From positions 39,908,758-39,972,757 of the forward strand of contig NC_134080.1 in NCBI RefSeq assembly GCF_000715075.1: a stretch of DNA of 64,000 nucleotides, in the 5' to 3' direction. Shown here piece after piece: positions 1-64,000 of the stretch. The notes under the pieces are model-generated. The model ran no database searches. It was given only the letters and a program-made list of their open reading frames with translations, and was not told the DNA's origin. The position numbers and the translations under genes are program-made. This stretch comes from Nicotiana tabacum (Eukaryota; Streptophyta; Magnoliopsida; Solanales; Solanaceae). The first letter of the stretch is position 1. Each line of letters opens with the position of its first letter.

Positions 1-302
1 TCCTTTACCTGACGGTCTTGGAAAATTCATTTGGTTGTGTACTGGGGCAACATGATGACACAGGAAGGAAGGAGCAGGCCATCTACTATCTCAGTAAGAA
101 ATTTACAGTGCATGAGGTCAAGTACACTCAACTCGAGAAAACATGCTGCGCCCTAACTTGGGTAGCTTCAGAAGTTGAAGCACTACCTGTCTTCATATAC
201 TACTTATCTCATATCCCGTTTGGACCCATTAAAGTATATCTTTCAGAAACCTATGCCCACGGGAAGGTTGGCAAAATGGCAAATTCTGCTCACAGAATTT
301 GA
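1..302 (+). pseudogene. Reverse transcriptase RNase H domain, C-terminal fragment, frameshifted
   Basis: The frame is open from position 3 and enters the window already coding. It contains the Tat RT RNase H signatures GCVLGQHD and KEQAIYYLSKKF. Around position 168-176 the protein switches frame: the first frame gives an atypical tail, while the normal continuation (SSYTTYLISRLDPLKYIFQKP) begins in the next frame at 175. A small indel at about 170 therefore separates this part from the downstream ORF, so the copy could not express a full Pol. In intact relatives this domain degrades the RNA strand during reverse transcription. Confidence 0.85.
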
Positions 303-2187
303 TATCGTCTACGTAACAAGGACGGCCATGAAAGCCCAGGCACTGGCAGACCATTTGGCAGAGAATCCCGTTGATGAAAAATACGAGCCCTTAAGAACGT
401 ATTTTCCTGACGAAGAGGTGATGCATACGAATGAGTTGGAAGTACCTGAGGAACCGGGTTGGAAGCTTTTCTTCGATGGAGCTGCAAACGCAAAAGGGGT
501 TGGAATAGGAGCAGTACTCATTTCTGAAACAGGACGGCATTATCCTGTTACGGCTCAACTGCGCTTCTATTGCACCAACAATATGGCCGAATATGAGGCT
601 TGCATTCTGGGTCTGCGCTTGGCTGCTGACATGGATGTCCAAGACGTCTTGGTCTTGGGAGACTCGGACCTCTTGGTACATCAAATTCAGGGTGAATGGG
701 AAACACGAGATCTAAAGCTCATACCATACCGACAATGCTTGCATGATCTGAGCAAGCAATTTCGATCGGTAAAGTTCAAACACATCCCGAGAGTTCACAA
801 TGAGGTTGCGGATGCCTTAGCCACCTTAGCATCAATGCTGCACCACCCTGACAAAATGTATGTTGACCCTCTACACATCCAGGTCCGTGATCAGCACGCC
901 TACTGCAATGCCATAGAAGAAGAAGCAGATGGCGAACCCTGGTTTCATGATATCAAGGAATACCTCAGGATGGGGATATATCCGGAACATGCCTCTGGGG
1001 ACCAAAAAAGAGCCCTTCGGCGTTTGTCGAATGGTTTCTTCCTCAGTGGAGGAGTATTGTACAAAAGAACCCCGGATTTGGGATTGTTGAGATGCATAGA
1101 TGCCAGGCAGGCAACGACGGTTATGGCGGAAGTACATGCCGGAGTTTATGGGCCGCACATGAGCGGATATGTATTGGCGAGAAAGATCCTTCGAACAGGG
1201 TGTTATTGGCTAACCATGGAACACGACTGTATCACTTTCGTAAGGAAATGCCATCAGTGCCAGATACATGGAGATTTGATTCATTCTCCGCCAACAGAGT
1301 TACATACGATGTCAGCACCCTGGCCGTTTGTAGCATGGGGCATGGATGTCATTGGGCCCTTCGAGCCAGCAGCGTCCAACGGTCATAGGTTCATTCTAGT
1401 GACCATTGATTACTTCACCAAATGGGTTGAGGCTAAAACCTTCAAATCAGTAACCAAGAAGGCAGTGGTGGACTTTGTTCACTCCCATATCATCTGCAGA
1501 TTTGGGATCCCAAAAGTGATCATCACGGATAACGGTGCGAATCTTAATAGCAGCTTGATGAGAGAGGTATGCCAACAATTCAAGATTACACACCGCAATT
1601 CCACCCCATATCGTCCTAAGGCAAATGGAGCAGTCGAAGCAGCCAATAAGAATATCAAGAAGATACTGCGAAAAATGGTGGAAGGGTCCAGACAGTGGCA
1701 CGAGAAATTACCCTTTGCTTTGTTGGGTTACCGCACTACCGTCCGGACTTCCATAGGCACAACTCCTTATTTGTTGGTGTATGGAACTGAGGCCGTGATA
1801 CCAGCGGAGGTCGAAATTTCGTCCCTCCGAATTGTCGCTGAAGCCGAAATTGATGATGATGAATGGATCAAAGCTCTCTTGGAACAATTGAGCCTGATAG
1901 ATGAGAAAAAATTGGCAGCAGTGTGCCATGGTCAGCTGTACCAGAAGAGAATGGCAAGAGCGTATAATAAAAAGGTGCGCCCCAGGAAGTTTGAAGTAGG
2001 GCAGCAGGTATTGAAGAAGATCCTCCCACATCAGGTCGAGGCAAAAGGCAAATTCGCCCCAAATTGGCAAGGGCCTTATATCGTGACTAGAGTCTTGGCC
2101 AATGGTGCTTTGTGTTTGACAGATGTCGAGGGAAGATGTGTCGACATGGCTATCAATTCAGATGCAGTCAAGAGATATTATGCGTAA
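175..2187 (+). CDS. Tat polyprotein C-terminal part: RNase H end, additional RNase H, integrase
   Basis: An open frame of 670 codons. Residues 1-65 finish the RT-linked RNase H. Residues about 96-222 are a second, archaeal-type RNase H with acidic residues D101 (FDGAAN), E139 (AEYEA), D163 (GDSDLL) and D213 (VADALA). This tandem RNase H is diagnostic of the Tat lineage. Residues about 321-362 are the integrase zinc finger (H321, H328, C359, C362). The integrase core shows D391 (GMDVIGP), D452 (TDNGAN) and E488 (GAVEAAN), with the D-D-35-E spacing intact. The C-terminus carries a WQGPYIV-type GPY module and no chromodomain. The first methionine is not a true start: the polyprotein is entered from upstream and broken by the frameshift near 170. 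The integrase itself has no stop and looks recently functional. Confidence 0.93.
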   Translation: MKHYLSSYTTYLISRLDPLKYIFQKPMPTGRLAKWQILLTEFDIVYVTRTAMKAQALADHLAENPVDEKYEPLRTYFPDEEVMHTNELEVPEEPGWKLFFDGAANAKGVGIGAVLISETGRHYPVTAQLRFYCTNNMAEYEACILGLRLAADMDVQDVLVLGDSDLLVHQIQGEWETRDLKLIPYRQCLHDLSKQFRSVKFKHIPRVHNEVADALATLASMLHHPDKMYVDPLHIQVRDQHAYCNAIEEEADGEPWFHDIKEYLRMGIYPEHASGDQKRALRRLSNGFFLSGGVLYKRTPDLGLLRCIDARQATTVMAEVHAGVYGPHMSGYVLARKILRTGCYWLTMEHDCITFVRKCHQCQIHGDLIHSPPTELHTMSAPWPFVAWGMDVIGPFEPAASNGHRFILVTIDYFTKWVEAKTFKSVTKKAVVDFVHSHIICRFGIPKVIITDNGANLNSSLMREVCQQFKITHRNSTPYRPKANGAVEAANKNIKKILRKMVEGSRQWHEKLPFALLGYRTTVRTSIGTTPYLLVYGTEAVIPAEVEISSLRIVAEAEIDDDEWIKALLEQLSLIDEKKLAAVCHGQLYQKRMARAYNKKVRPRKFEVGQQVLKKILPHQVEAKGKFAPNWQGPYIVTRVLANGALCLTDVEGRCVDMAINSDAVKRYYA

Positions 2188-2450: not shown

Positions 2451-2469
2451 AAGGAATATAAAACCGTGG

Positions 2470-2512
2470 GAACTACGTTTGACCTGATTCCTCAAAGAGG
2501 ATACGTAGGCGC
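2470..2512 (+). other. Two-stem RNA motif, 3' UTR position 1 (element L)
   Basis: Outer stem CTACGT (2473-2478) pairs with ACGTAG (2503-2508). Inside lies a single-stranded stretch ending TGAT and an inner hairpin TCCTC-AAA-GAGGA. The orthologous copy in element M is at 33125-33166 on the minus strand with the same inner hairpin. It lies 283 nt after the integrase stop. Confidence 0.7.
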
Positions 2513-2525
2513 CTCACGGCTCGGT

Positions 2526-2603
2526 CATAGTATGCATCATAGTGAATATAGGATGCATAATGTACATAGTATGCATCATAGTGAATATAGGATGCATAAT
2601 GTA
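2526..2603 (+). repeat. 39-bp direct repeat, two copies
   Basis: Two perfect adjacent copies of a 39-bp unit beginning CATAGTATGCATCATAG, starting at 2526 and 2565. A third, degraded copy follows to about 2640. Confidence 0.9.
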
Positions 2604-5375: not shown

Positions 5376-5423
5376 CGAACTACATTGACCTGATTCCTGT
5401 TCAGCCCAGGATATGTAGGAAAC
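5376..5423 (+). other. Two-stem RNA motif, 3' UTR position 2 (element L)
   Basis: Outer stem CTACAT (5380-5385) pairs with ATGTAG (5413-5418), a compensated change from the CTACG/CGTAG of the other positions. The inner hairpin is TCCTG-TTCAGCC-CAGGA, preceded by the shared TGAT. It ends about 115 nt before the polypurine tract. The orthologous copy in M is at 30385-30430. Confidence 0.7.
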
Positions 5424-5537
5424 CTCTGAAGCAAAGGTTCGGTCAAATCTCTTTCAAAAAATGCTTCACACGGAGTATTCGGACGGGCAAAAATCGCTCG
5501 CTTTATCTTTGCGCGAAAACCCTTCGTGTCTTCGTGC

Positions 5538-22286: not shown

Positions 22287-22965
22287 TGTTGGTATTATTC
22301 ATCTTTAGGTGTTATACTCTAATTTGATAATGCAAAGAATAAAAAACTTCTAATCCACAATTATCTGTGGTTAATTTTCATACCTCTCCACCATTAATTT
22401 TTGTAACATATCTAGATTGTATGTATATACAGAGTAGGAGAATGAAGTTACTACTTCATAAATAGTTCACATTCATAAATATGACGGCTTCTTAACTTTT
22501 GTGACTTTGTTTGTGAAAAGATATTAGCTTTTCAGAAAGTTTGAAGTTACTGTCTTTATGATAATTTTATCATTAAGACAAAAATAATGTTACATAACAT
22601 TAACTCCCATTTGATTCTTACATTTTTCTGATGGAAGAAACCGTAGCTGATTTGCCTATATAAGCATCATCATTTGTGAACTAAATAACCAACCAAAAAA
22701 TATTATTCTCTCATCCTCTCAAAAGACTATTCTTCTTCCTATTTTTCTGGGCAATTTCTTTTTGCAAACTCCAAACTTCCAGCAACGAGTGCATGTGTTT
22801 GGAAGTATTGTTGAATCTTGGAGAGCGACTAATCTTAACGATTTGCATTCAGTCGGACTAAAATCGCTTTCAAGGCAGTGGCTTGCCACGACACAGTATT
22901 GATTCGATAAGTTATTTATATTCTTTTATTATTTTTGGTCATTATTATCAAGTGTTTTTCTAACA
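22287..22965 (+). repeat. 5' LTR of copia-1 (679 bp)
   Basis: Starts TGTTGGTATT and ends TTTCTAACA. It aligns with 25628-26093 plus 42026-42215 with moderate divergence. No convincing primer binding site follows, so the PBS is mutated or lost. Confidence 0.93.
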
Positions 22966-22995
22966 ATGTAAAAGCAATTTCATAATATTGATCAA

Positions 22996-23206
22996 TGGCT
23001 ACTACTTTGACTAAAACTCTTCCCGATTTGTCAAAGCTTAGCCTTTGGATAGAAACAATTATAAGGGTTGGTCCCAGAGACTTTTGATTTTCATCGAACA
23101 ATTAGAAGTTGATTATGTTTTGTTCAACGAACCTTGTGCTAATGTTGTGTCTAATACTATTGTTGTTATTGATGGAAGGGATTTGCCCATAACTTGAGAT
23201 TTTTAA
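22996..23206 (+). pseudogene. Copia-1 gag N-terminal remnant
   Basis: Starts at ATG 22996 (MATTLTKTLPDL). A frameshift follows after about 15 codons, and the other frame then reads NYKGWSQRLLIFIEQLEVDY and FNEPCANVVSN, typical of the Ty1/copia gag start. A stop follows near 23190. The sequence then passes directly into integrase-derived sequence, so the rest of gag, protease and most of integrase is deleted. Confidence 0.75.
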
Positions 23207-24990: not shown

Positions 24991-25627
24991 AATAATTATT
25001 GAATCATAGTGTTATTTCTTTGGAATATGTAAAATCCGAAAAAATTTGACGTATCCTTAACCAAGGGTTTGGCAAAGAAAGTTGTCCTTGAAATATCGAG
25101 GGGGATGGGGCTAAAGCCCATGGATTGAGGAAGTATGGTGGATACCCGTTTGTGGTCAATCGAAGCCATATTAGACTTCAATATGCACTACATGTTCTAT
25201 CCCTATGACGTGTGATAATGCTTTATAAGGTTCAGCCTACTTTGGTCTTAATGATTCCATAGCTTTAAGGTGGTCTAAATGTTGATAGACTTGATGGAAT
25301 CACCTACATGAGTGTAAAGTGTGGTCGCCTTTTATGAAAGACTTGGGATGTCTTTCTAGAGCACTCATGAGACCCAAGGTGTGTGCATGATCATAAAATC
25401 ACTTTGTTAGTATCGCAGAGTTTGCATAAAGATTAAGGATATAGTATGTGTTGTGAGGGTCTCACTCATATCCATTTAGTTCAAGAGTACTTCACTCTGT
25501 GGATATTAGTTGTTGCCTCATTTTACTACATGTCAATTCAAATCGAAAGACATTGACACTTAAATACATGTTCCTTCCTTTTGCCCAGAAATTATTCTTA
25601 TTCTTTATCTTTGCATTAGTGAGGGAT
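24991..25627 (+). other. Copia-1 3' non-coding region
   Basis: No coding signal after the RNase H remnant. It ends GTGAGGGAT immediately before the 3' LTR, a weak polypurine tract candidate. Confidence 0.6.
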
Positions 25628-26093
25628 TGTTGGCATTATTCCTCTTTAGGTGTTATACTCTAATTTGATAATGCAAAGAAGAAAGAACTTCTAATCCACA
25701 ATTAATCTGTGGTTAATTCTTATACCTCTCCACCATTAATTTTTGTAACATATCTAGATTGTATGTATATGCACAGTGGGAGAATGAAGTTACTACTTCA
25801 TAAATGGTTCACATTCATTCATATGACGTTTCTTAATTTTTGTGACATCGTTTGTGAAAAGATATTAGCTTTTCAGAAAGTTTGAAGCTACTGTCTTTAT
25901 GACAATTTTGTCATTAAAACAAAAAATAATGTTACATAACATTAACTCCCATTTGATTCTTACATTTTTTTATGGAAGAAACCGTAGATGATTTGCATAT
26001 ATAAGCACCAAGCAAAAAATATTATTCTCTCATCCTCTCAAAAGACTATTTTTCTTCCTATTTTTTCCTGGGCAATTTCTTTTTGCAAACTCC
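25628..26093 (+). repeat. 3' LTR of copia-1, left part
   Basis: Aligns with 22287-22760 of the 5' LTR and stops at the ACTCC target duplication (26089-26093), where element M begins. Confidence 0.93.
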
Positions 26094-29000: not shown

Positions 29001-30249
29001 GAAACAGGAGCAGCTGGGGGGCGTTTGGCTTGCTTGTAGACGACGAAGTTCGGCGAGGCAGACGACGCCACTACGGCAGCCATGGATGGAGGTCGAGACT
29101 CGAGCCATGAACAACAACTACGAACAAACAGCAACGACGCATCCATGGACGACGAGCTTGGAACAGATGCAGCTCGGCCATGGATTCAACAGCGACGAGT
29201 TGCTGTGTCGTTTGGATGGGGAATATGAAGGCAGTGACAGCAGTAGCAGCTTGCGCGAGCTTGCAGCTGAAAGTAGAAGAAGCGAGGTGGAGGAGGGCAG
29301 TGTTGACGACGGGGTTTGGACGATGAAGCAGCAGCTCGGAGGAAGGAGGAGAAGCAGCGGCGTCGGAGGGTTGTTTGGACGGGATTGTGGTCGTTTGGTC
29401 GACTGGTCCTGTGGGAACGTGAAGACGCAGCAACGGGGGGGAAAGGGGGAAAGTCGACGCAACAACGATGGTCGACGCAACAATGGCGGAGAAGATGACG
29501 AAGGTGAGGTCGAGGAAGAAGAAAGAGCAGCAGTGGCGTGAAGGGGAAACAAAAGGATCAGCCATGGATGGGTTCTTTTGAGCTTTTGGAGAAGAAGGAG
29601 CAAAAATGGGTGTGGAGGGCGGATAGTTAGTTTTAGGTTTTTAGGGTTTTTTGTTCTTTTTTGTTTTTTTTCTTTTGTTTTGTTTTTTGAATGAAGAGGG
29701 GTGTTGGGTTAATGGGTTAATGGGGCGAACCGCGTCGACCCGTGTAAAGTGGACTGGGTCATGGACAATTGTTTGGGCCTAGGGTTGAAAATTGAAGAAG
29801 TGGCCCAATCCGATTTTTATTTGTATTTTTGTTATCTTTTCTTCCTTTATTTTCTAAAACTAAATTATAAAAATACTTAAACTATTATTAAGAATTAAAT
29901 TAAGTTATAAAAACGCAAATTAACTCCCAATAACAATTAACGCACAATTAAGTAATAATTAAGCATAAAATTGTATATTTGGACATTAAATGCTAAAAAT
30001 GCAAACGATGCCTATTTTTGTAATTTTAATTTTTGTAAAACAAATTTAATTACTAACAATTGTATAATTAAATCCTACATGCAAAATGCGACATATTTTT
30101 GTATTTTTATTAATTTAACAAATAAACAACGCACAGACAAATACAAATAATTATTCAAAATATCACAAAATTGCACACCAAAGAAAAATCATTTTATTTT
30201 TGAATTTTTGGGAGTAATTCTCATATTGGGCAAAAATCACGTGCTTACA
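26094..30249 (-). repeat. 3' LTR of element M (4156 bp)
   Basis: Minus-strand ends are TGTAAGCACG (at 30249) and GTGTGACA (at 26094). Interior ORFs around 28780-29600 overlap on both strands in a GC-rich segment and show no domain. They are kept in both LTR copies simply because the LTRs are near identical. Confidence 0.95.
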
Positions 30250-30262
30250 GCTGCCCCTCTTT
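30250..30262 (-). other. Polypurine tract of element M
   Basis: Inverse complement of AAAGAGGGGCAGC, adjacent to the inner edge of the 3' LTR; identical to that of L. Confidence 0.85.
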
Positions 30263-30384
30263 GCCCGGAGACACGAAGGGTTTTCGTGCAAAGATAAAGC
30301 GAGCGATTTTTGCCCATCCGAGTACTCCGTGTGAAGCATTTTTTTTTTTTGAAAAAGATTTGACCGAACCTTTGCTTCAAAGGT

Positions 30385-30430
30385 TTCCTACATATCCTGG
30401 GCTAAACAGGAATCAGGTCAATGTAGTTCG
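30385..30430 (-). other. Two-stem RNA motif, 3' UTR position 2 (element M)
   Basis: Outer stem CTACAT/ATGTAG (30388-30393 and 30421-30426) and an inner hairpin with TCCTG/CAGGA arms. It is the orthologue of 5376-5423 in L, with one loop difference (TTTAGCC against TTCAGCC). Confidence 0.7.
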
Positions 30431-30810
30431 GGAAGTTTTTGGTAGCTGGGACTACCGTGGGACTGCGATGTTACTGTTGTTGCATGTTGTTATCACTGCT
30501 TACCGATCTCCTTGTTACACCGTGCTTAAAAGAAAACAAGAAGCTAGGCTAGACTAAAATTTGTTCTTGTTGCCTTGCTTTCTTGTCGGCTTGTGTTTCC
30601 TCCGGTGCTTTTCTTCCGATGCTTTTCTTCCTTTTGACACATGCACTTGAGTTTGTGCTGGGACCTCTTGTTACAACCTTCTGCTTCCCGGTGCTGGGGA
30701 TTTTATTGTTTACTGCTGGGGATTCCTGTTGTAACCTTCCGCCTTCTGGTGGGGTTACTGATTCCAAAATCTGTAATACAAGACTAAAAAGTTGCTTCAA
30801 TGCAAAATTA

Positions 30811-30895
30811 TGAAATGTATGCCCGCATTATACTGGTGGGCGACCTAGAACATGAAATGTATTCCCGCATTTTACTGGTGGGCGACCTAGAACTG
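30811..30895 (-). repeat. 41-bp unit of the L array, two to three copies
   Basis: ATACTGGTGGGCGACCTAGA and TTTTACTGGTGGGCGACCTA are inverse complements of the 41-bp unit that is repeated 22 times in L. Confidence 0.85.
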
Positions 30896-30949
30896 AAAGT
30901 AAAAGGACAGAAATGTATGCCTCTGTTATATGGGCGGGCTTCCAACTTC

Positions 30950-31265
30950 AATGCTAACTTAGGAGGAAATGCGTCTCCTATGGGTAAAAGTAAACTTAGG
31001 AGGAAATACGTCTCCTATGGGTAAAAGTAAACTTAGGAGGAAATGCGTCTCCTATGGGTAAACTAAACTTAGGAGGAAATGCGTCTCCTATGGGTAAAAG
31101 TAAACTTAGGAGGAAATGCGTCTCCTATTGGTAAAAGTAAACTTAGAAGGAAATGTGTCTCCTATGGGTAAACTAAACTTAGGAGGAAATGCGTCTCCTA
31201 TGGGTAAAACTAAACTTAGGAGGAAATGCGTCTCCTATGGGTGAAACTAGACTTAGGAAGTGCGT
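30950..31265 (-). repeat. Tandem array of about 36 bp, nine copies, with AGGAG/CTCCT arms
   Basis: The core TTAGGAGGAAATGCGTCTCC recurs about every 35-37 bp with small indels in the spacer GGGTAAAAGTAAA. Each unit contains TAGGAG and CTCCTA as an inverted pair around GAAATGCGT, so each could fold into a small hairpin. Confidence 0.9.
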
Positions 31266-31410
31266 CTCCTATTGGCAAAGGCGTGGAATGTATTCCCTTG
31301 TTATACAGGTGGGCACCTAAAATATGCAATGGACAGACAAGAAAAGTATTCCTCTCGTTATTCAGGTGGGCGCCTGGCTTCAACAACAACTTTGAAAATA
31401 AAATCCTATT

Positions 31411-31740
31411 CGAGGGCGGATGAACCCAAAATATCCTATTCGAGGGCGGATGAACCCAAAATATCCTATTCGAGGGCGGATGAACCCAAAATATCCTATT
31501 CGAGGGCGGATGAACCCAAAATATCCTATTCGAGGGCGGATGAACCCAAAATATCCTATTCGAGGGCGGATGAACCCAAAATATCCTATTCGAGGGCGGA
31601 TGAACCCACAATATCCTATTCGAGGGCGGATGAACCCACAATATCCTATTCGAGGGCGGATGAACCCAAAATATCCTATTCGAGGGCGGATGAACCCAAA
31701 ATATCCTATTCGAGGGCGGATGAACCCAAAATATCCTTAA
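31411..31740 (-). repeat. 30-bp tandem array, 11 copies
   Basis: CGAGGGCGGATGAACCCA recurs exactly every 30 bp from 31411 to 31711. Copies are nearly identical; two have CCCACA instead of CCCAAA. The period is a multiple of three, so it creates artificial repeat-peptide ORFs in several frames. I see no such array in L. Confidence 0.97.
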
Positions 31741-33124
31741 GACTTGAAAATGTCTTGCCTCGAATACTTGCTGGGGATAACACTGTTGGGGAATTATTTA
31801 CTTACCTGTTGGGGGGTAAAATGTTATCAGCTGGGGATAACACTGTTGGGGGATTCTGATTCTTTCAGAACTAGTGCTTCACTGAGCTCAAGTTTCATCC
31901 CTTTGCTGGGGAACAACTTCCTCCATAGAACTTATTATGTTGGGGCAACACTGGTTCTAGGACCACTTCCCTTGAGACTGGCGTTATCTTTATTCTTTCC
32001 CGCATGGGTACCTGACTTCCAGAAAATTTTCTAAGCGGAAGGAAAATTTTCTGCCCCAGTTTGATAATATCCCTTGCGGCATGCATTTCTGGCATCAATG
32101 CCATTTCCTTTACCTGTTTCAAATCAAACAAATTTTGTTAGTTTAAAACATGGTGGTTGGTTGTGATACTCTTACTGGGATGGTTTCCTCTTTCTCCTTT
32201 CCCAGCTTTGTGTTCCATTATGCTATCAAAACTTGTTGGGGATGATGTTAATTGCTGACACTGGCCCATCCCTTTTATCAATCTCATCTTGATGGGGATA
32301 CCCTTCTTGACACGGGTTTTGCGCATGTTCCTTCCTGACTTATACCATTTGGATGTACTAGTCAGATCTCATTTCGTATAATTGGAAAGCTGATGGCGTA
32401 TTTCGAAGTCAATTCACTTGTTCTGACCAGACAGACTCTATTGGGGATTTTTCTATGAAAGGAAAAAGATAAAAGGGAACAGAATAAAAAGAATGAATGA
32501 CTCTTTAACAAAAGAAACTATAAATAAAAACCTATCAAATGCAGATACCGACTCTAATGGCCATGACATGCGTATGTGGCCTATCCTCTACCGTCAATCA
32601 TCTTTCAAGATCTTCAATTGTCGATTCCCCATCTGATTCTCAAACTTATTCGACTTGTAGTGCCCGAAGGGTTTTCACTATCAAGTCTCTCTCATTTTTT
32701 GTTCTTCTCTCAGCTTTCATCGCTTTATGGTGCCTATGAAGGTTTTCACCGATAAGACTCTCTCATTTGTATCACTTTCCAGCTGGGGATTCGGAGTGTT
32801 GCCGATATGACTCTTTCTGTTGGAGATTAGAGTCCTTTCTGTTGTGGAACAGAATGTTATGCTCACCGGTGAGACTCTCATTTGTCTGACTTGGCATCTT
32901 TTGAAGACTGATCAGAAGGTCTTTCTTTGGACCGTAATGTGAGTTTTGGATAAGCTAGAAAGAAAGGGTATAAAAGGCTCAAAAATGCATCGATTTTGGG
33001 TTAATAATTACAACTTTCGGAATTATATTTATTTACAACAAACACAACTTTTGCCCCAGTTTCTTGCTTGGGGACATTTTAATTGATTTTTTTCATTTTT
33101 CAAAACTATGACCGAGCCGTGAAG

Positions 33125-33166
33125 CGCCTACGTATCCTCTTTGAGGAATCAGGTCAAACGTAGTTC
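33125..33166 (-). other. Two-stem RNA motif, 3' UTR position 1 (element M)
   Basis: Outer CTACGT/ACGTAG type stem (33128-33133 and 33158-33163) and an inner hairpin TCCTC-AAA-GAGGA on the minus strand. It is the orthologue of 2470-2512 in L. Confidence 0.7.
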
Positions 33167-34025
33167 CCAATTCCTCTTTTCATTCCGACTTTCTTTCTTT
33201 TTTTTTTTTGTTATCATCATTTTTCTTTTTTTTTCTTTCATTTTTCTCTTTTTCGTTTTGTTGTTTTCTTTCTTTCTCTTTTTTCGTTGCTACTGATTCC
33301 GAACGAGGGGTATGAAAGAAAACAATAAGGCTCAAAAGGGGTTAACGAAGGATAAAGTGTTTAGGTAGCAGAACAAAATGCCTTCGTCATTCCAGTCTTC
33401 AAAACATGCCAAGTGCAAACAACACAATTTGAACATAGGTTTATAGTCTCTTCCGATGGTGCCGGACTTGACAATTATGTTAAACATTTTATTTTTCCTT
33501 GTCATTTCAAAAGCACCGTTGGGTGACACTCTCACCCTCATTATCTTGAACGGCCCTCATGCCAATTTGGCAAATCTTGCTTTTAACGGTTTTTCTTTGT
33601 GTTTCACTTGCCCCAGTTCCACATGACTCGGGCTTCAAATAATCCAAACCGTTCTTATTTCCTTTAAATGGTCTGATCGCCTTTCTAGGGTTTTACGAAT
33701 AACTTTTAAGGTTAGGCCCAAACTGTGTGCGCATGTCATGTCACTAGAATCGACACTGAACAAAAATGATAAAAGGACTAAACAAAGAGATGACTGGAAA
33801 TAAAGAAAGACCGGATTTTGTATTAGACTACCGGTGAAATGGTTTAAATAACAAAACAAACAAAACAATCCAGAACAAAATCCTAAAACAAACTGGACAA
33901 GACAATATCCGACTTATAACCCTAATAATCCGAACAACATAAATGTCAACAAAATAAGCCACCACAAGCTTCTCTCTTGTTAACCAAGGAACAGAGCGTC
34001 CTTCCACTTTATCAAGACTGGCATC

Positions 34026-34826
34026 TTAGCCACTGAGCTTTGCATCGATACTGCCAAGACCATTACCAGCTTCAATATCATCAACATCCGTCGGCAAGTT
34101 CTCGAGGGGGCTCGAGTGCACCATGTCACTGTTATTAATCACAACCCGCCCTTTTTGGATCATTTTCTCTACTTCCCTTCTCCAACTATGACAGCTCTCA
34201 ATGTTGTGCCCTATGACATTGGAGTGGTAGGCGCATCGCGCTGCCGGATCAAAGCTCCTTGCAAGTGGATTTGGAGTACATGCAGGGAGTGGCTCAATCG
34301 AGGCAGCATGCCTTAGCCTTTCAAACAGACTGGCATAAGATACCCCGATAGGGGTGAGAGCCTTTCCTCGTTTCAGCAACCTCTTCATTCTTGCATGTTG
34401 ACAGGGCCGGAAACCTGATCCAGATGGCTTTTGGTAGGCTTGTATGGGTGGGTAAGCATTTCGTGGAGTCGGGTACCTGGGAAGTGAGGTATGGCTTTTG
34501 AGGTCACAGGGAAAGAAGTGGTGTTGGGGAGCGGAGAAGCATTGAGGAGTGATGGAGCTACTCGGATAGCTGGGAAAGCTGCCATAAATGGGTTGGGATA
34601 GAGAGTATGGGGGATCTTCCATTATGGTGTTGGGTGCTTGGGAAATGACCGAGTTCAAGAGGCTTGGCGGTGGAGGGGGTGGTGCTTTTCCCGTTATCCA
34701 TGCCTGATACATGTCTGCCACATGCTGTCTCAGCATTTTCACTTCTTCTACCAACCCGTTGTTCTGTTCGACCAATTGTTGTCGGTCATCAGTACCGACC
34801 CACTCGGTTCTGCGGTTCTGAGCCAT
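34026..34826 (-). pseudogene. Internally deleted gag of element M
   Basis: An uninterrupted 266-codon frame starting MAQNRRTEWV, about 3.0 kb inside the 5' LTR. Residues about 15-40 are helical (LVEQNNGLVEEVKMLRQHV), residues 50-135 are proline/serine/tyrosine rich, and the C-terminal third has TPIGVSYASLFERLRHA and the zinc finger CAYHSNVIGHNIESC (C-x2-H-x5-H-x4-C). The capsid part seen in Tat-B gag is absent, so the N-terminal region is joined to the nucleocapsid region. It may still bind RNA but should not form particles. It is possible that the frame is only neutral remnant sequence. Confidence 0.85.
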
Positions 34827-35078
34827 TGTCCTTTGATTTTGCTTTGCAGGGAGGAGTTACCACAACCAACCACTTTCTATATATGGACACATCAAAAGGA
34901 AGCCATCACGTTAGTGTTAGGGCATTGGACAGACAATCATGTATCAGAGATACAATGTACCTAAGTAGTTAGACAATTGTGCCCCCTGAAAATCTTCCAC
35001 ACTCTCTTTTATTTATTTATTATTATATTTTTTTATATATTTTTTTTATTTTAGTGGTGGTCGAATCTTATGGAGATT

Positions 35079-35123
35079 GCCTACGTATCATGACCCCGCA
35101 TGAATCAGACCGAGCGTAGTTCG
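35079..35123 (-). other. Two-stem RNA motif, leader position 2 (element M)
   Basis: Outer CTACG/CGTAG (35081-35085 and 35115-35119) and inner hairpin TCATG-CGGGGT-CATGA on the minus strand. It is the orthologue of 63784-63829 in R. Confidence 0.7.
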
Positions 35124-35574
35124 GACCCAATAAAAGATAAACAATGCTAAACATTTTTTTTCAATTTTCATGTTAAAACAAACTGGGTTTCAAAGGTTTG
35201 AAGATGACCTACAAGCTGGAAAATCAAACAACCCACATATTCTAATTAAAAGATTTACAAACGGCCAGTCTCTTTCCCCGTTTGACAAATGCAACCAAAC
35301 GGTTATTTTTGCAAATGTGGCCCCTTCCAAATTTCACATGAATTTGAGGCCGGGGAGGATTATTTTATGACACTTTACACACTTGTCCATTCTTTTACGA
35401 AAATAACCTTTCGACAACTGACAGATACTCTAAGGCTATTTCGGCAAGAACGGTTCAAGACGCGGCCGAAGTTGGCTCGGCTTATTTTGACTAAAAAATC
35501 CAAACGGTATTCACCTGACCGCTGACTCTTTTTTTTTCTTTTCAAATTATACTAAAAACCTGATGTTGCAAACA

Positions 35575-35945
35575 CAGCCCTTCAGCGTCTCGGGGACGAA
35601 GATTTATAGGGCTGTGTGGGTCAACTAGACCAAAATCCTAAACATGACCCAAAAAGGTGGTTGTTTATGCAAAGTCAGCCTTCCGGCGTCCCTCTCGGGA
35701 ACATTCGGCTATTTTTGACAAAATAGCATCACCCGACTTATTTATGACTCTTTTTATCATTTTTCGAATTAGAAAAGTCAATATTGCAAACACGGCCTTT
35801 CAACGCCTCGGGGACGAAGATTTTTAAGGTTGTGCGGGTCAACTGGACAAAATCTTAAAAATGACCCGAAGGTGACTGTTTATGCAAAGTCAGCCTCCCG
35901 GCGTCCCTTTCGGGAACATTCGGTTATGTCTTCATAAAATAGCGT
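35575..35945 (-). repeat. Duplicated leader module of about 215 nt (element M)
   Basis: Two diverged copies, each with GACGAAGATTT, GGGTCAACT, and a TCCC/GGGA hairpin at 35689-35700 and 35904-35915. On the RNA strand the hairpin loops are GAGA and GAAA, both GNRA tetraloops. R has the same duplication. Confidence 0.8.
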
Positions 35946-36106
35946 CACCCGACTTCTCTATGACAAAATTAAAATTTTGACATGTTTTCTTTTTGGCTAT
36001 TTTAGCAAAAGGGGAGGTTGGACACCACCCGACTTATTCATGACAAGAGTAAATTTTTTGATTTTTGACTATTTTAGCAAAAGGTGGGGTTGGACCCGAT
36101 GAGGGT

Positions 36107-36152
36107 TGCCTACGTATCTCACATCCGGTGAGAATCAAACCCGCGTAGTTCG
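36107..36152 (-). other. Two-stem RNA motif, leader position 1 (element M)
   Basis: Outer CTACG/CGTAG (36110-36114 and 36144-36148) and inner hairpin TCTCAC/GTGAGA. It is the orthologue of 62806-62852 in R. Confidence 0.7.
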
Positions 36153-36964
36153 AGCAATCAAGAATAAGTAGATGAACTAACTTTTTTTTTTGTGAATTTG
36201 TGAAAGAACTACTTTAAAAGAAGAAATGAAGTATATTTTTTTTTTGGATTTTTGATTGATCTTTTTTTTGAAAGAAATACTTCTAAGATATATTTTTGAA
36301 TTTCATTTGCTTTTTTTTATTCTAAAGAAGAAGAAGAAAATATTTTTTGGAATTTTACCTTTAATAAAAGAAATGCTTCTAAAATGTTTTTTTTTGAATT
36401 TTGAATTTTCTTTTCAATTTTTGAAAGAAGAATCAAAATATTTTCGGATTTGGTTTTTTTTTTATATTATATATTTATATTTATTTATTATTTTTTTTAG
36501 AAAAACAATTAGAAAGACTTTCTAAAGAAGTCAATAATGGAAAATATTTTTGGATCATCTGTTTTGAAAATTGGGATTCTAAAAACTTTTGGCAAGACCA
36601 ATGTTCTTGCAACAGATAAAGATATATATACATTTTTTGGAAATAAAGAAAAACTTTTGGATTTTTTATATATATATATTTGCAATAATAAAACCACTTT
36701 CAACGCCCGACTCCCCTTTTTTTTTTATAACATAATAAAACTTATTGGACTTTTTGACATTTTTCAAAACAAGACTTGCTAATAAAACAAACTTAATAAG
36801 ACACATTTTTTTTCATTTTCTCAAAATTTCAGCAGAGCTACGACTCTACTCGGACTCTTTCACGGTTTTCTAATATGTGGAAAATGATGACAACATACAA
36901 AATCTTTTGAATTTTCATGCTCTTTTTTTTATATGTATATATATATATATGTTTATTATTATTT

Positions 36965-37190
36965 TTCAAAAATGTGGCATGGGAAACATAAGGATTTCCA
37001 AGACATCTTGGATTCCGCAACTGTTCCCCATGCGCTTTTCCCAACATGTGAAGCATGGGGGACATAGGGAATTCCAAGACTTCTTGGATTCCACAAATGT
37101 TCCCCATGTGCTTTTTCCCAAAAAATGAAGCGTGGGGGACATGTGGAATACCAAGGCTTCTTGAATTCCACAATGTTCCCCATGTCATTA
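36965..37190 (-). repeat. Triplicated hairpin module in the M leader
   Basis: Three copies of about 75 bp. Each has a CCAAG/CTTGG inverted pair around four bases, followed by GGATTCCRCAA.TGTTCCCCAT and a GGGGGACAT-like segment. The R leader has the same three copies (61815-62030). Confidence 0.85.
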
Positions 37191-37849
37191 ATTAACATAA
37201 TGGCATGCTTATCAAAAATAGTGCAACTTTCTTATTTAACGTGATCAGCATGATAAGGAGTGTCATTTGTCTGCAAATATCATTGGTCCGCCAAATGACC
37301 CATTCACCCTTGCATAAATACAACATGTAGCACATAGGATGCCAAATATGGTCTATTATTTTCAGGTTGCTTGTCCTAGACGGACCCAACCCCTGTGTTG
37401 AGTCCCCTAAGTCAAATGCACATGATGCAAATAAACGTTCCTACTAGGGATCCGACATGTGGCTTCGTTATACTAAGTTCATAACCTGGGTATTTGTTCT
37501 AGACCTGGCTTACCCGAGCGGACAGCTCGAGCCGAGGGGGGGCAGCGTACCGGGAATACAGAAGCTTCACCGGCTTAGCAACTTATCCGAACCTCGTTCT
37601 AAATTGGGATTTGACACTATACAGAAAAGAAGTCATACGAAGTACGCCCTTCTTCATGATTTAGAAGACTCAGAAAGTATAGGGGTTTCGGCACAGTTTA
37701 TATACAGTTCACGTAATATCAAAGCAGTAAAAGCAGCATTTAGCACATTAGGCTCAAACATGTAAAAATCAGATAATAAATAAAGCCAAATAATAACAAT
37801 TATTTTAAGCTCGAATTCTTAACCCTAAACCAGTGGTTCTGGGTGGGAA

Positions 37850-37867
37850 TCCCCAGCAGAGTCGCCA
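37850..37867 (-). other. Primer binding site of element M (tRNA-Arg)
   Basis: Reads TGGCGACTCTGCTGGGGA on the minus strand, four bases from the LTR edge; identical to R and Tat-B. Confidence 0.88.
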
Positions 37868-37871
37868 GAGC

Positions 37872-40800
37872 TGTCACACCTCCTTTTTTCGACCCCGCGA
37901 AGGGCGTAGGAGTTTTTTCCAATTAAAGGACAATCAAAACGGGATTTATTTATTTATTTCAGAGTCGCCACTTGGGAGATTTAGGGTGTCCCAAGTCACC
38001 AATTTTAATCCCGAATCAAGGAAAAGAATGACTCCATATTACAGTCTGCGTACCAGAAATCTGGATAAGGAATTCTGTTAACCCGGGAGAAGGTGTTAGG
38101 CATTCCCGAGTTCCGTGGTTCTAGCACGGTCGCTCAACTGTTATATTCAGCTTGATTATCTGATTTTATACAAATATGAACTTATGTGCAAATTTTATCT
38201 TTTTACCGCTTTCATAATTGTTATTATTATTTTTACAAGAATGTGAACATCGTTTAAAAACATGTCTTTGGATTGCGTCACATAAAATGCACCCGCGATC
38301 CGGAACGTATTTTTATTCAATGTTTTAGGATTTGGATTTGGGTCGCATAAATGCGCACCCATGTTTAAGAATGTATTATTATTAAATCGTGCCTAAAGCG
38401 ATTAGCATATTATTATTTATGGGTAAGACTGTGGAATTCACTAAACAGTCCATCCCGAATTCTAAATACTCAATTAAATATTTATTGAGGGCCCCGCAAT
38501 TAGTGCATTTTATTGGACGAGGCTCATCTCATTTTATTTTTAAAAGGACAGTCCTAAAATGCCTATATTTTTTATTGAAATTTGTATCTACAAAATAAAG
38601 GAGAAATATCTTAATTTATTTACATGTTATTACCTAGTTACATTATACTAGGCATGTTCTCAGTTTGTCAAATTAAAAAAAAACATAGCAATTCTAATTT
38701 TAATCCTAGACCATTTATATGCTGAAATTAACCAATATTATTTAACTAAATAAATTTCTACCAACTTCCTACTAGATGGCCTATTCGTTTGATTTTTTAT
38801 TCAACGGAATTACTACACCATTTATTTATTTTTAGGCAATAGATGTAGATAGTTCATTTGTTAAGCTATCGTCGAATGTTCCACTATATGTATTAAATAT
38901 CTACATGATTCTGATTTTTTGCAAACTACATAATTTATACATACAAATAAAATTCAGAATATAATTAAATATAATTCAAAATTTCAACTCTTCATTTTTT
39001 CGTATTCATGCTTCATATTTCGGATTACAATAACCAGCGTGTCAGTTGTGTACCTGATATTGGAAGCAAAAGAAAATGAAGATGAGAATCAGCAGCAGCA
39101 GTAAAATCAGTACAACACAGCAACAATAGCCCAACAACAGTAACAACCCAGTAACAGACCGGTGGAGTAGTAATCCAAAAAAACAAAAGCTTCAGCTTTT
39201 ATGAAACAACAATCAATTCTGATTTCAAACAACAAAAGAAAGCAGAATATTTTTTTAGTTTTTTTTATTTGAAAGCTTAAATATTTTTCGGAATTTTCTA
39301 TCTCTTAAATGTTCAGCCCTTTTCTCTCTTATTTTCAGATTTGTTTCTCTCTCCCGTTTTTTTTCTGTCTCCCCCCCTTTGTGTTTCTGATTTCAAGACT
39401 TCTTATAACCCATCCCATAAATCTTTCCATTAATTAAAATCAACCCATTTTCTCTACCAAACCCACTCATCCCCATTACACTAAATAAATATATCAACCC
39501 CACTCCATTATATTTTGTTCTCCATGCTTCATTAAACAAATACAAGATTCCTCCCCACTAAATTTTGTCTTGTCCCCCCCTTTATATTAAACAATTATAT
39601 CACAACCCACCCCATTTCATTTTGTCCCTCATGCTTCAAATAAACAATTACAAAATGTACAATTCTTAAACTACCCCTCCGACCCTATTGCAAATTGCTA
39701 TTTTACCCCCCGAAAGTACTATAAATTACCAAACTACCCATCAGCTATAACACATCAATTAATCAAACTTAACCAAAATATAGACAATATGATTAATTTC
39801 TAACAATGTTCAAACAACAAATTTCATGAACATGAATTCTTCAACATTTCAACAACAAAGCACATGAACATGATTTCAACAACATTTCAACAACAAATCA
39901 CATGAACACAAATTGAACAACAAAGAACAACTAAAATTTGATTGAACAATATTTTAGCAACAAACAATCCTATTTTCGGATTCAACAACAACAACAAACA
40001 AGTATATTTAGATTTCTAACTTCAATCATATTGAACTTAAAATCAATTCTAACAACATTACAACCAACAATTCTTATATTAAACTTTAAACAAGATTATG
40101 AGACCAATTCAAGAAATAATCACAAATGGTAAACAAGAAATCAAACTATAAACATTTCGGATTCAAAATCAAACAAACATAATATGAACATGAATTAAAT
40201 CTAAAAATAAAAACGACGAATTCAAATGACTAAAACCAACATACTTCCCTTATTACAACTAAATTCTTTTAGGCAAATGACAAAACAAAAACTAAGAAGA
40301 AACAATTATGAATTTAAACTTGAACTTAACAATATTAACAATTTCCGGGAAATACATCAAATACATGAAACAAATTGAAGAAACAATTAATTAAATTTCA
40401 ATTTGAATCTAACAAATATTAAACTAACAAATATTCACTTAAACAATAATACAAACATGAAATAAACATGAAAACAACTAATTAATCTTTCATTTGAAAT
40501 CTGAAAAATTAATTTAACAAACAACACATGAACATGAACTAAAAATTAATTCAAACGTTAAACAAAACAAACATTTGCCGATTTTAGATTCGAAAATATC
40601 AAAACAAAATACGGACAAAAATAAAACTCAAAAACTACTAACCGGACTGAAACGAAGAGTGTATGGACTGACTCGACGAACCTCGGCCAAAGTTCGACCA
40701 CGCGACGATGAACGAATTTAAGAAGCGAACCAAGCGGCGCCGAAGCAGTAGCAGCAGTTCGGCGCAGCGGAAGGGATGAAACAGGAGCAGCTGGGGTGCG

Positions 40801-42020
40801 TTTGGCTTGCTTGTAGACGACGAAGTTCGGCGAGGCAGACGACGCCACTACGGCAGCCATGGATGGAGGTCGAGACTCGAGCCATGAACAACAACTACGA
40901 ACAAACAGCAACGACGCATCCATGGACGACGAGCTTGGAACAGATGCAGCTCGGCCATGGATTCAACAGCGACGAGTTGCTGTGTCGTTTGGATGGGGAA
41001 TATGAAGGCAGTGACAGCAGTAGCAGCTTGCGCGAGCTTGCAGCTGAAAGTAGAAGAAGCGAGGTGGAGGAGGGCAGTGTTGACGACGGGGTTTGGACGA
41101 TGAAGCAGCAGCTCGGAGGAAGGAGGAGAAGCAGCGGCGTCGGAGGGTTGTTTGGACGGGATTGTGGTCGTTTGGTCGACTGGTCCTGTGGGAACGTGAA
41201 GACGCAGCAACGGGGGGGAAAGTCGACGCAGCAACGATGGTCGACGCAACAATGGCGGAGAAGATGACGAAGGTGAGGTCGAGGAAGAAGAAAGAGCAGC
41301 AGTGGCGTGAAGGGGAAACAAAAGGATCAGCCATGGATGGGTTCTTTTGAGCTTTTGGAGAAGAAGGAGCAAAAATGGGTGTGGAGGGCGGATAGTTAGT
41401 TTTAGGTTTTTAGGGTTTTTTGTTCTTTTTTGTTTTTTTTTTCTTTTGTTTTGTTTTTTGAATGAAGAGGGGTGTTGGGTTAATGGGTTAATGGGGAGAA
41501 CCGGGTCGACCCGTATGAAGTGGACTGGGTCGTGGACAATTGTTTGGGCCTGGGGTTGAAAATTGAAAAAGTGGCCCAATCCGATTTTTATTTGTATTTT
41601 TGTTATCGTTTCTTCCTTTATTTTCTAAAACTAAATTATAAAAATACTTAAACTATTATTAAGAATTAAATTAAGTTATAAAAATGCAAATTAACTCCCA
41701 ATAACAATTAACGCACAATTAAGTAATAATTAAGCATAAAATTGTATATTTGGACATTAAATGCTAAAAATGCAAACGATGCCTATTTTTGTAATTTTAA
41801 TTTTTGTAAAACAAATTTAATTACTAACAATTGTAGAATTAAATCCTACATGCAAAATACGACATATTTTTGTATTTTTATTAATTTAACAAATAAACAA
41901 CGCACAGACAAATACAAATAATTATTCAAAATATCACAAAATTGCACACCAAAGAAAAATCATTTTATTTTTGAATTTTTGGGAGTAATTCTCATATTGG
42001 GCAAAAATCACGTGCTTACA
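37872..42020 (-). repeat. 5' LTR of element M (4149 bp)
   Basis: Near-identical partner of 26094-30249. The visible differences are a few substitutions and short indels, such as nine bases in the G-run region (29446 against 41218). It is followed by the ACTCC target duplication at 42021. Confidence 0.95.
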
Positions 42021-52770: not shown

Positions 52771-53481
52771 TGTTATACAATAAAGATTGTAAAGTAAAGA
52801 CAAGTATAGAGAGAAACTGATATAGTATTCGAATTCAAACTGATGTACATAATGAACTGAAATCTCTTCTATTTATAGAAGAAATGAAGGTGTTGTGTAA
52901 GCTGCTACTATACCAGATATGAATAATCTTCTATTGAGAGTAATATTTATCCATAACGGAGTACTGAAAAGATAAGCTCATTGTACCAGGTATAGATAAT
53001 CTTCTACTGGAGGTAATGTTTATCCATAACGGAGTACTGAAAGGATAAGCTCATTATACCTGGTATAGATAATCTTCTACTGGGGGTAATGTTTATCCAT
53101 AACAGAGTACTGAAAGGATAAGCTCATTGTATCCGGTATGGATAATCTTCTATCGGGGATAATATTTATTCATAATGGAGTATTGAAACGATAAGCTTAT
53201 TATACCCGGTATGGATAATCTTCTGCCGGGAGTAATGTATCCATAACAGAATATCGAACGGATAAACTTATTATACCCGGTATGGATAATCTTCTATCGG
53301 GGATAATATTTATCCATAACCGGGTACCGAAGTGATAAGCTTCTTCAGGAGGCTTATTTCCAATACAGTACTAAATAGATAAACATATTTACGACGGAGT
53401 CCCATATGGATAAGCTTCTTCAGGAATCTTATTTACAACGGGGTACTAAATGAACATCCATAATATAATATATTTATAACA
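52771..53481 (-). repeat. 3' LTR of copia-2 (711 bp) with 73-bp internal repeats
   Basis: Bounded by TG...CA and aligned with 57748-58173. It contains about six tandem copies of a 73-bp unit (about 52911-53350) recognised by GATAATCTTCTACTGG and TTATCCATAACGGAGTACTG. Confidence 0.9.
52911..53350 (-). repeat. 73-bp tandem repeats in the copia-2 LTR
   Basis: About six units plus degraded ones to 53450, progressively more diverged to the right. The other LTR has at least four units (57889-58173) before it is cut. Confidence 0.88.
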
Positions 53482-57747: not shown

Positions 57748-58173
57748 TGTTATAAAATAAAGACTGTAAAGTAAAGACAAGTATAGAGAGAAACTGATAT
57801 ATTATTCGAATTCTGACTGATGTATATAATGAACTGAAATCTCTTCTATTTATAGAAGAAAGGAAGCTGATGTGTAAGATGCAACTATACCAGATATGGA
57901 TAATCTTCTACTGAGAGTAACAGAGTACTGAAAGGATAAGCTCATTGTACCAGGTATAGATAATCTTCTACTGGAGGTAATGCTTATCCATAACGGAGTA
58001 CTGAAAGGATAAGCTCATTGTACCCGGTATAGATAATCTTCTATTGAGGGTAATGTTTATCCACAACGGAGTACTGAAAGAATAAGCTCATTGTATCCGA
58101 TATGGATAATCTTCTACCGAGGGTAATATTTATCCATAACGGAGTATTGAAAGGATAAACTTATTATACCCGG
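57748..58173 (-). repeat. 5' LTR of copia-2, truncated by element R
   Basis: Aligns with 52771-53220 (ACTGATATA...ATTCGAATTC and the 73-bp repeats) and stops at 58173 directly before the R LTR start. The 3' remainder should appear after R, outside the window. Confidence 0.9.
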
Positions 58174-58734
58174 TGTAAGCACGTGATTTTTGACCCTCCC
58201 CGGGAATTTTTACGTCCTTAAGCTTAAATATCTAATTTAGGACTAGTATAGCCATTTTAACTATTTTTACTTTATTTCGTTGCAAAAAGAAATTTCAAAA
58301 AATATATATATAAATTTTAGTTTATGTATCTCTCATAAACTTGAAAAATACAAAAATTGTACTTTATTTTTGTACTTTATAATTTCGAAAATTACAAAAA
58401 AAAAATATAAGTAAAATATAGTTCTATTAAGGTTTTATAGTCATTTTAACTTTGAAAAATACAAAAATATTACCTCATATTTTATCTTAATATTTAAAAC
58501 GAAAATTACAAAAAAATAGTTTCATTAATATTTTGTAGCTATTTTAAATATTGAAAAAATATTTAAAAAAGATATAGTTTTGTTTAAATACTAGTCTTAT
58601 TTTTGGTAGTTATTTTACTTACATAGGACTAGTTAAGCAACGTGTTCCTATTTCTCGGGTCCGGGCAAAAGAATAATATTCGGGTTCAAAATACCCGGTT
58701 TTAGGCCTAATTTTCGGACCTAGCCCATAATAAA

Positions 58735-62805: not shown

Positions 62806-62852
62806 GAACTACGCGGGTTTGATTCTCACCGGATGTGAGATACGTAGGCAAC
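62806..62852 (+). other. Two-stem RNA motif, leader position 1 (element R)
   Basis: Outer CTACG (62809-62813) pairs with CGTAG (62843-62847). Inner hairpin TCTCAC-CGGAT-GTGAGA, preceded by the shared TGAT. It lies about 1.58 kb into the leader. Confidence 0.72.
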
Positions 62853-62944
62853 CCTTATCGGGTCCAACCCCACCGTTTTGCTAAAAAGCCAAAAACAAAC
62901 AAATAATAATCATAAAAAATATATATGTCAAATTTTAATTTTTG

Positions 62945-63330
62945 TCATAAAGAAGTCGGGTGACGCTGTTTTATCAAGACATAGCCGAATGTTCCCGAAA
63001 GGGACGCCGGAAGGCTGACTTTGCATAAACAGCCACCTTTGGGTCATTTTTAAGATTTGGTCCGATTGACCCACACAGCCTTAAAAATCTTCGTCCTCGA
63101 GACGTTGACAGGTCGTGTTTGCAGTATTGGGTTTCCTATTTTCAAAAAACAATAAAAGAGTCATAACTAAGTCAGGAGATGCTGTTTGTCATAAATAGCC
63201 GAATGTTCCCGAAAGGGACGCCGGAAGGCTGACTTTGCATAAACAGCCACCTTTTGGGTCATGTCTAGGAGTTTGGTCCAGTTGACCCACACAGCCTTAA
63301 AAAGCTTCGTCCCCGAGACGCTGAAGGGCC
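62945..63330 (+). repeat. Duplicated leader module of about 214 nt (element R)
   Basis: Two copies with GCCGAATGTTCCCGAAAGGG, GACGCCGGAAGGCTGACTTT and GACCCACACAGCC. The hairpin TCCC-GAAA-GGGA is at 62993-63004 and 63207-63218, 214 nt apart, each with a GNRA loop. It is the same module as 35575-35945 in M. Confidence 0.83.
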
Positions 63331-63783: not shown

Positions 63784-63829
63784 GAACTACGCAAGGTCTG
63801 ATTCATGCGGGGTCATGATACGTAGGCAA
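63784..63829 (+). other. Two-stem RNA motif, leader position 2 (element R)
   Basis: Outer CTACG (63787-63791) pairs with CGTAG (63821-63825). Inner hairpin TCATG-CGGGGT-CATGA, preceded by TGAT. It lies about 450 nt before the predicted gag start. Confidence 0.72.
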
Positions 63830-64000
63830 TCTCCATAAGATTCGGCCACACACAAAAAAAAATGATGAAAAAGAGAAAAAAAGAAAAAAGGAAAAACAAA
63901 GGTAAAAAAAAATAAAAAAAATAAATATATATATATTGATAATAATAAGGACCGACTGAGTCCATTCTAACATATTTGGTTTTGAATTGTGAAGAAAGTT

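Follow-up and report, generated by a model that had tools for sequence, protein, structure and literature searches.

The window analysed here, 64,000 nt of the Nicotiana tabacum genome (NC_134080.1, positions 39,908,758 to 39,972,757), contains eight copies of a short RNA motif, all on the sense strand of three Ty3/gypsy-type elements that we call A, B and C. The copies fall into four position types, T1 (after pol), T2 (before the 3' LTR), T3 (leader) and T4 (before gag). They comprise an outer stem (P1), two hairpins (P2 and P3) and a further helix (PK, with the arms PKa and PKb), and are listed below together with the host features.

166..2187, plus strand: RNase H-integrase section of pol, element A; its stop is 282 nt upstream of the start of T1
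2470..2527, plus strand: T1, element A; P1 CTACGT/ACGTAG, P2 TCCTC/GAGGA, P3 GCC/GGC, PK TGACC/GGTCA
5377..5446, plus strand: T2, element A; P1 CTACAT/ATGTAG, P2 TCCTG/CAGGA, P3 AACCT/AGGTT, PK TTGACC/GGTCAA
26093..30249, minus strand: 3' LTR, element B; 98.5% identical to the 5' LTR of B
30360..30429, minus strand: T2, element B (gag-only); found by descriptor and covariance model
33109..33166, minus strand: T1, element B; P3 GCT/GGC, a C-G to U-G change that keeps the pair
34026..34856, minus strand: gag-like ORF, element B, between T4 and T1
35059..35122, minus strand: T4, element B; P2 TCATG/CATGA, P3 AATCT/AGATT, PK GGTC/GACC
36087..36151, minus strand: T3, element B; P2 TCTCAC/GTGAGA, P3 ACCC/GGGT, PK GGGTT/AACCC
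37871..42020, minus strand: 5' LTR, element B, ~4.1 kb
62806..62870, plus strand: T3, element C; found by descriptor and covariance model
63784..63847, plus strand: T4, element C; PK GGTC/GGCC

Element A (plus strand) reads, in order, RNase H-integrase, T1 (from 2470), a tandem array with a 41-bp unit, T2 (from 5377) and a 3' LTR from about 5,550; a 90-nt piece of element B is 91-93% identical to the A array (3782-4942; 30919-31285). No pol match was seen in element B (26093-42020, minus strand), which keeps T3, T4, T1 and T2. Adjoining its 5' LTR is TGGCGACTCTGCTGGGG, which we take to be primer-binding-site-like from its presumed tRNA complementarity. In element C (plus strand) the 5' LTR ends near 61,222 and is followed by T3 and T4. 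The leader between these two copies (62870-63007, plus strand) gave a weak group I intron-like Rfam match (22.9 bits, gathering threshold 50, E 0.0024), which may be another structured leader piece or chance. A further gag-PR-RT-integrase element, D (9685-15364, minus strand), ends beside the LTR of element A, and its integrase piece is about 60% identical to that of A; near D, no recognisable motif was found in 9600-26000 when the filters of the model were disabled (best E 0.61). At 52771-53345 and 57748-58247, 5 kb apart, are two arrays of 73-bp period that are related to each other at about 90% identity.

All eight copies listed in the original prediction were recovered, within 0-1 nt of the GAA edge, and the outer and inner arms pair in each of them (8/8). 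The compensated outer stem CTACAT/ATGTAG is likewise paired, and belongs to the type preceding the 3' LTR. A structure descriptor in which only TGAT, one G and one C were fixed as letters, composed with knowledge of the eight copies, returned nine rows, namely the eight copies with one found twice, and none in 20 Markov shuffles. A covariance model (R1) built from two position types, T1 and T4, plus a copy from a metagenome assembly (L009, see below) recovered the held-out types T2 and T3; these other four window copies were found at E-values, which are rough, of 1e-14 to 5.3e-12. No ninth copy was seen in the window, where R1 gave eight matches at E<=1.

Helices and covariation of the motif

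The motif is a sense-strand RNA domain with the helices P1, P2 and P3 and a fourth helix, PK. The plan originally proposed stands in its outer stem and inner hairpin, but it was incomplete, with P3 and the pseudoknot overlooked. In each position type a second hairpin, P3, lies beyond P1' and is followed by a segment, PKb, that is complementary to the 5' stretch PKa (TGACC/GGTCA in T1, TTGACC/GGTCAA in T2, GGGTT/AACCC in T3, GGTC paired with GACC or GGCC in T4). The 5' stretch, first read as single-stranded, is really one helix arm, with its partner ~20-30 nt past the 3' end initially assigned. The full motif of ~58-81 nt reads GAA, P1, PKa, UGAU, P2 hairpin, U(A), P1', GG, P3 hairpin, C, PKb. 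Because P1 and PK cross, the two together form a pseudoknot from which P2 and P3 branch as hairpins.

R1 at E<=0.01 gave 95 matches in 47 sources, namely the window, L009 and 45 loci of the set L010-L059, from whose 50 members five that overlap others were left out. P1 and P2 were evaluated on the alignment of these 95 matches (63 distinct rows), which had been fitted to the structure of the model. They are paired in 98.0% of cells, versus 85.9% in shuffles and 22.7-48.5% in slid structures. The covariation score of 0.340, compared with 0.119 in shuffled alignments, was reached by 0/500 shuffles, and strongly supports the earlier claim of a selected RNA fold. The number of pair types (17 versus 14.7 shuffled) was reached by 10/500. 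The count of pairs with two-sided change, 4 compared with 3.6 in shuffles, was matched by 283/500 and does not stand out. In P2, both sides have changed in three of five pairs, one of them with six pair types, whereas P1 hardly varies, with two-sided change at one pair (7 rows). Compensated P2 variants such as TCATG/CATGA, TCACG/CGTGA and TCGTG/CACGA occur within one position type, and among distinct P2 arms, excluding copies with a P2 hairpin below 13 nt, 144/165 cells are paired versus 121.4 shuffled (0/5,000).

PK was scored on 90 distinct copies, in whose choice PK and P3 had played no part; four copies without a placeable P3 were left out of the final count. In the remaining 86, 317/344 PKa/PKb cells are paired and 71 copies form all four pairs. 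Sliding the register by -2, -1, +1 or +2 left 0/86 copies fully paired and 3-44% of cells paired. When each distinct PKa/PKb combination was counted once, 91/116 cells were paired and 16/29 combinations were complete, versus 77.3 and 9.1 in shuffles, with 0/5,000 reaching either value; as the copies are related, shuffle counts are not probabilities. PK, P2 and P3 arms all covary. Compensated PK changes were found within T1 (TGACC/GGTCA to TGACT/AGTCA), T2 (TGACC/GGTCA to TAACC/GGTTA), T3 (GGGTT/AACCC to GGGTC/GACCC) and T4 (AGGTC/GACCA to AGATC/GATCG), so the double changes are not merely differences between old duplicates.

Fewer than three contiguous PK pairs from the register were present in 11/86 copies, some of which look like parser errors (T2 subgroup). 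The P3 hairpin served to place PKb, and the placement rewarded a C after that hairpin; a preceding rule ("first C") had left 24/63 copies unpaired and was replaced, after those rows had been seen, by the second C of CC or TC. In the early scoring, 5/71 rows with a 5' stretch shorter than 4 nt were dropped, and 3 of the remaining 66 lacked P3. When the 5' stretch was searched freely for helices with the next 45 nt, most single copies gave a weak signal (shuffle fractions 0.0025-0.34), and exchanged partners frequently scored as high. What decides for PK is the fixed register alone.

Unpaired letters are conserved at 98-100% in the 90 distinct copies, which were picked by their core: GAA before P1, UGAU before P2 (98-100%), U and A before P1' (100%) and G after P1'. 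Since the loci were mostly fetched by P1 patterns and found again by a fuzzy core, the conservation of P1, GAA, TGAT and GATACGTAGG is inflated. The C before PKb occurs in 98% of 86 copies, a value inflated by the placement rule, which favours a C and makes the conserved C partly a matter of construction; the inner loop is variable. The P2 and P3 hairpin loops differ among copies in length and letters. Within the 64-nt motif, pairwise identity averages 0.81-0.85, versus 0.27-0.65 in 50-nt flanking bins, a contrast that is partly ascertainment because the copies were located through their core. This comparison used 150 nt on each side of 16 T1, 8 T2, 20 T3 and 21 T4 copies (the 65 of 90 with flanks), with groups set by letters, so that a T4 copy with A at P1 may land in T2. 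The GAA edge is sharp in T1, T2 and T4, and in T3 the two preceding letters are conserved too.

Genome-wide counts bear on P1. The pattern GAACTACG-N18-40-GATACGTAGG had 57,282 matches in the 4.0-Gb genome, and its reversed form one. The compensated spelling CTACA..TGTAG had 26,657 matches and the A.C mispaired spelling CTACA..CGTAG 2,839, each with one match for the reversed control; a compensated change at the neighbouring pair (pair 4) had 578, versus 0 reversed. The scarcity of the A.C form is suggestive support for P1. P1 is supported by two near-invariant blocks being complementary, by the compensated T2 form and, weakly, by this scarcity.

Energy folding of the short copies told little. 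Folded alone (42-53 nt), the eight copies and L009 were of unremarkable stability (z -0.5 to -2.3), and 6/9 minimum-energy folds deviated from the structure first proposed. With full-length copies, a nested energy model lost P1 in 5/5 cases and retained the pairing of the PK arms; the minimum-energy folds of the copies T1a, T3a and L009 are three-way junctions of PK, P2 and P3. As P1 was absent from all five nested folds, its simultaneous presence with PK is not proven. We consider the structure of the motif solid, and the coexistence of P1 and PK in one fold likely.

Placement in Ogre/Tat-type elements

In some large plant genomes, Ogre/Tat elements are among the major components. Their traits are an ORF1 upstream of gag, gag-PR and RT frames split by stops, tandem repeats before the 3' LTR and a very long LTR. 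Corresponding features here are an ORF1 with DUF7745, split frames in the locus L041, the tandem arrays and the 4.1-kb LTR of element B. In L041 the gag-PR frame (1971-5486) and the RT frame (5571-8039) are separated by stops; the gag-protease frame (plus strand) ends in a sub-cut-off G-patch domain match, ahead of the RT frame. An intact 462-aa ORF1 with a DUF7745 match was found in L049 (8220-9608, minus strand), between the leader motif and the pre-gag motif. A plant mobile domain in ORF1 was below the cut-off in L049 and above it in one piece of L055.

In Ogre/Tat-type Ty3/gypsy elements the motif recurs four or five times: the leader carries one or two T3 copies, after which come ORF1, T4, gag-PR, RT, RNase H-integrase, T1 and T2. 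One such run of T3, T4, T1 and T2 occurs at C1:1,766,419-1,779,282 among the matches listed. Of the first 30 loci fetched, several of them overlapping, 21 have Tat-type coding sequence within 1.5 kb, always on the motif strand; the other nine gave no match to the Tat-type coding queries within that distance. We further analysed 20 ten-kilobase stretches picked around matches, with 53 copies. Within each stretch the copies lie on one strand only. Coding hits of 80 aa or longer were found in 19 of the stretches (L044 has none), and all of these hits are on the motif strand. The untranslated, sense-strand placement originally proposed holds in the stretches examined; 51/53 copies are outside any sense frame of at least 100 aa.

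The nearest sense frame of at least 100 aa stops 154-300 nt before T4 in all ten stretches with an ORF1 match and T4, and 126-266 nt before T1 in eight of the nine with integrase and T1 (508 nt in L051). After T4, the next such frame opens 181-319 nt on in 9/10 stretches (477 nt in L055). No obvious coding stop precedes T3 or T2. The gag-only elements (B in the window, L048 and L054) retain T3, T4, T1 and T2; in L053, T3, T4 and T2 are present and T1 is not recognisable.

A search of a prokaryote genome collection gave a single motif match, L009, on contig JAFUBK010000065.1 of a 'Bacilli' metagenome-assembled genome (MAG) from roe deer jejunum (positions 7690-8000 of locus L009 and 1-1924 of locus L080). 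The first part of the contig is presumably bacterial, going by its ORF names, and its end encodes a hAT transposase. The motif lies 52 nt past the hAT stop, on the same strand, and is another solution of the same fold, with a 7-bp P2, an 8-bp P3 and a 6-bp pseudoknot, GGCCTT/AAGGCC. We rejected a bacterial origin of this copy, since it is the only one in the MAG and the contig end encodes a hAT transposase. The MAG also has no Tat integrase match, an empty answer that carries no weight there, and L009-like DNA was not found in plasmids and phages. We take the hAT-bearing end to be plant DNA in a herbivore-gut assembly, chimeric with bacterial DNA. In the tobacco genome, the two hAT relatives (~30% identical) that fall within the listed range have no exact motif nearby among the matches listed. 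If real, the neighbourhood of L009 means that the motif is not private to LTR elements. The hosts in the stretches examined are of Tat type, as predicted, but on the strength of this one contig, already chimeric once, the motif may reach beyond Tat elements.

Relation to known RNA elements

No Rfam match at gathering was found in the window, in agreement with the original statement that no named family is known. Permissive Rfam scans of the T3/T4 region, L009, eight T2-type loci and T1 gave only far sub-threshold overlaps with motif copies, which were set aside as chance (ST7-OT3_4, 14.6 bits; Plasmodium RNase P, 17.1 bits; Dengue SLA on the opposite strand, 15 bits). In viral contigs the exact patterns gave 0 and 8 matches, all eight without the GAA flank; by eye, three were taken for a coding motif of phage GIY-YIG proteins, and in one or more of the eight, L001 included, the inner stem can pair. 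Among pol relatives sought in viral contigs, one stretch fits the peptide pattern and none encodes a relative.

Among the titles and abstract openings listed by full-text searches of open-licence PMC papers, we found no description of the motif and no report of a structured RNA signal in Ogre/Tat elements. Ogre/Tat-lineage elements, to which Retand is a related lineage, are alike in a long region between pol and the 3' LTR with tandem repeats and in having non-autonomous members, but Retand LTRs measure 315-1,194 bp, compared with about 4.1 kb in element B (PMC11963269); the words 'hairpin', 'secondary structure' and 'stem' are absent from that text. Sireviruses (Ty1/copia) likewise have conserved non-coding motifs, some of them repeated, in otherwise divergent plant LTR elements. 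Those motifs comprise polypurine tracts, repeat boxes in the LTR and, at the polypurine tract, an inverted repeat, with no covarying pseudoknot (PMC2829016). The RNA stability element of Rous sarcoma virus likewise acts in cis, in a lengthy retroviral RNA whose 3' UTR past an internal stop is also long (PMC5580461); it belongs to an animal virus, and the likeness drawn here is one of context.

Possible functions

Our leading guess, to which we give a probability of roughly 40%, is that the motif is a host-factor site that exports or protects long transposon RNAs. The conserved joints (GAA, UGAU, U, GG) would come together in a single compact surface to which a trans-acting factor binds, most likely an RNA-binding protein of the host. 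The bound factor could mark very long, multi-ORF transposon RNAs for export or shield them from decay after internal stops. Non-autonomous elements would retain their copies because these act in cis. With the joints conserved while loops and stem letters drift, the motif looks more like a surface for recognition than like a dimer signal made by loop-loop contact. This reading also agrees with copies downstream of the ORF1 and pol stops and in untranslated intervals, with their retention by gag-only elements and with the possible copy in a hAT 3' UTR. Counting against it are T3 and T2, which lack an obvious stop before them, the single hAT case, the loss of P1 in the nested folds, the two-sided change at just one P1 pair, and a plant-virus study in which unstructured post-stop RNA gave resistance to nonsense-mediated decay and added structure abolished it, a readthrough structure also being protective (PMC6277124). 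In a wider form, which we hold unlikely, the motif would be a new RNA structural family, a portable cis-regulatory module with which unrelated plant transposons (Ogre-type LTR elements and hAT DNA transposons) evade a surveillance or retention step of the host acting on RNA; its copies in this genome would number tens of thousands.

The main rival, which we find somewhat unlikely, is a Gag-binding packaging or dimer-linking element, whose several copies would raise avidity and let gag-only parasites be packaged in trans. It accounts for the confinement of copies to the sense strand in the sampled stretches, for their presence at both RNA ends and for their retention in gag-only elements, and the 5' end of yeast Ty1 RNA reportedly contains packaging sequences (PMC5454406). 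It fits every copy except the one beside hAT, which, downstream of a DNA-transposon transposase, would serve no packaging role; a hAT copy, single case as it is, would favour a general mRNA role. Positions just after pol or before the 3' LTR are unusual for packaging signals. Dimer linking through kissing loops is made improbable by the variable P2 and P3 loops.

Translation control, a ribozyme and an exonuclease block are less likely. Reinitiation or internal entry for a downstream ORF would suit T3, upstream of ORF1, and T4, between ORF1 and gag with the next frame 181-319 nt on in 9/10 stretches. T4 is nonetheless at a distance from the gag frame, and the sequence after T1 and T2 yielded no identifiable sense gene, so we think such a role decidedly unlikely.

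We are still more sceptical of a self-cleaving ribozyme or its relic. The strand order of HDV-like ribozymes is P1-P2-P3-P3'-P1'-P4-P4'-P2', and the motif, provided that P1 and PK form together, shares this nested-pseudoknot helix order, and an occurrence in retroelement RNA, with those of R2, L1Tc and other retrotransposons; without P1, its layout (stem, CUGAU, stem, GA..., stem, UC) recalls the hammerhead. Besides topology, the C before PKb, with its inflated frequency, would be in keeping with a ribozyme, and many mobile elements contain HDV-like ribozymes (PMC4035085). On the other side, no Rfam ribozyme model reached threshold, and permissive scans of four stretch sets gave no HDV or hammerhead family. 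HDV-like ribozymes have a P1.1 and a catalytic C in J4/2; in the motif, the C before PKb reaches its inflated 98% and the inner loop is not conserved. HDV-like ribozymes have no unpaired joint between P2 and P3 or between P3 and P1', whereas the motif has UGAU and U(A) joints without an HDV counterpart. The motif also differs in its near-invariant P1, its 5' GAA, its several copies per element and its LTR host. The hammerhead core is CUGANGA ... GAAA ... UH, whereas the motif reads CUGAUUC...GAUA..., with the two positions after UGAU paired U-A and C-G in 61-62 of 63 rows. Four or five cutters would moreover destroy the genomic RNA. A 5'-3' exonuclease roadblock that yields protected fragments is very improbable: a compact pseudoknot recurring along the RNA would suit it, but known xrRNAs stall Xrn1 with an apical-loop pseudoknot ring, the apical loop pairing with downstream RNA, and here both hairpin loops are variable.

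Whether it acts by export and protection, as we favour, or by packaging, a ~65-nt pseudoknot with natural compensatory variants would give a handle on the recognition, export, protection or packaging of giant multi-ORF retrotransposon RNAs. It would also be a marker for annotating the UTRs of Ogre/Tat elements and of their gag-only parasites.
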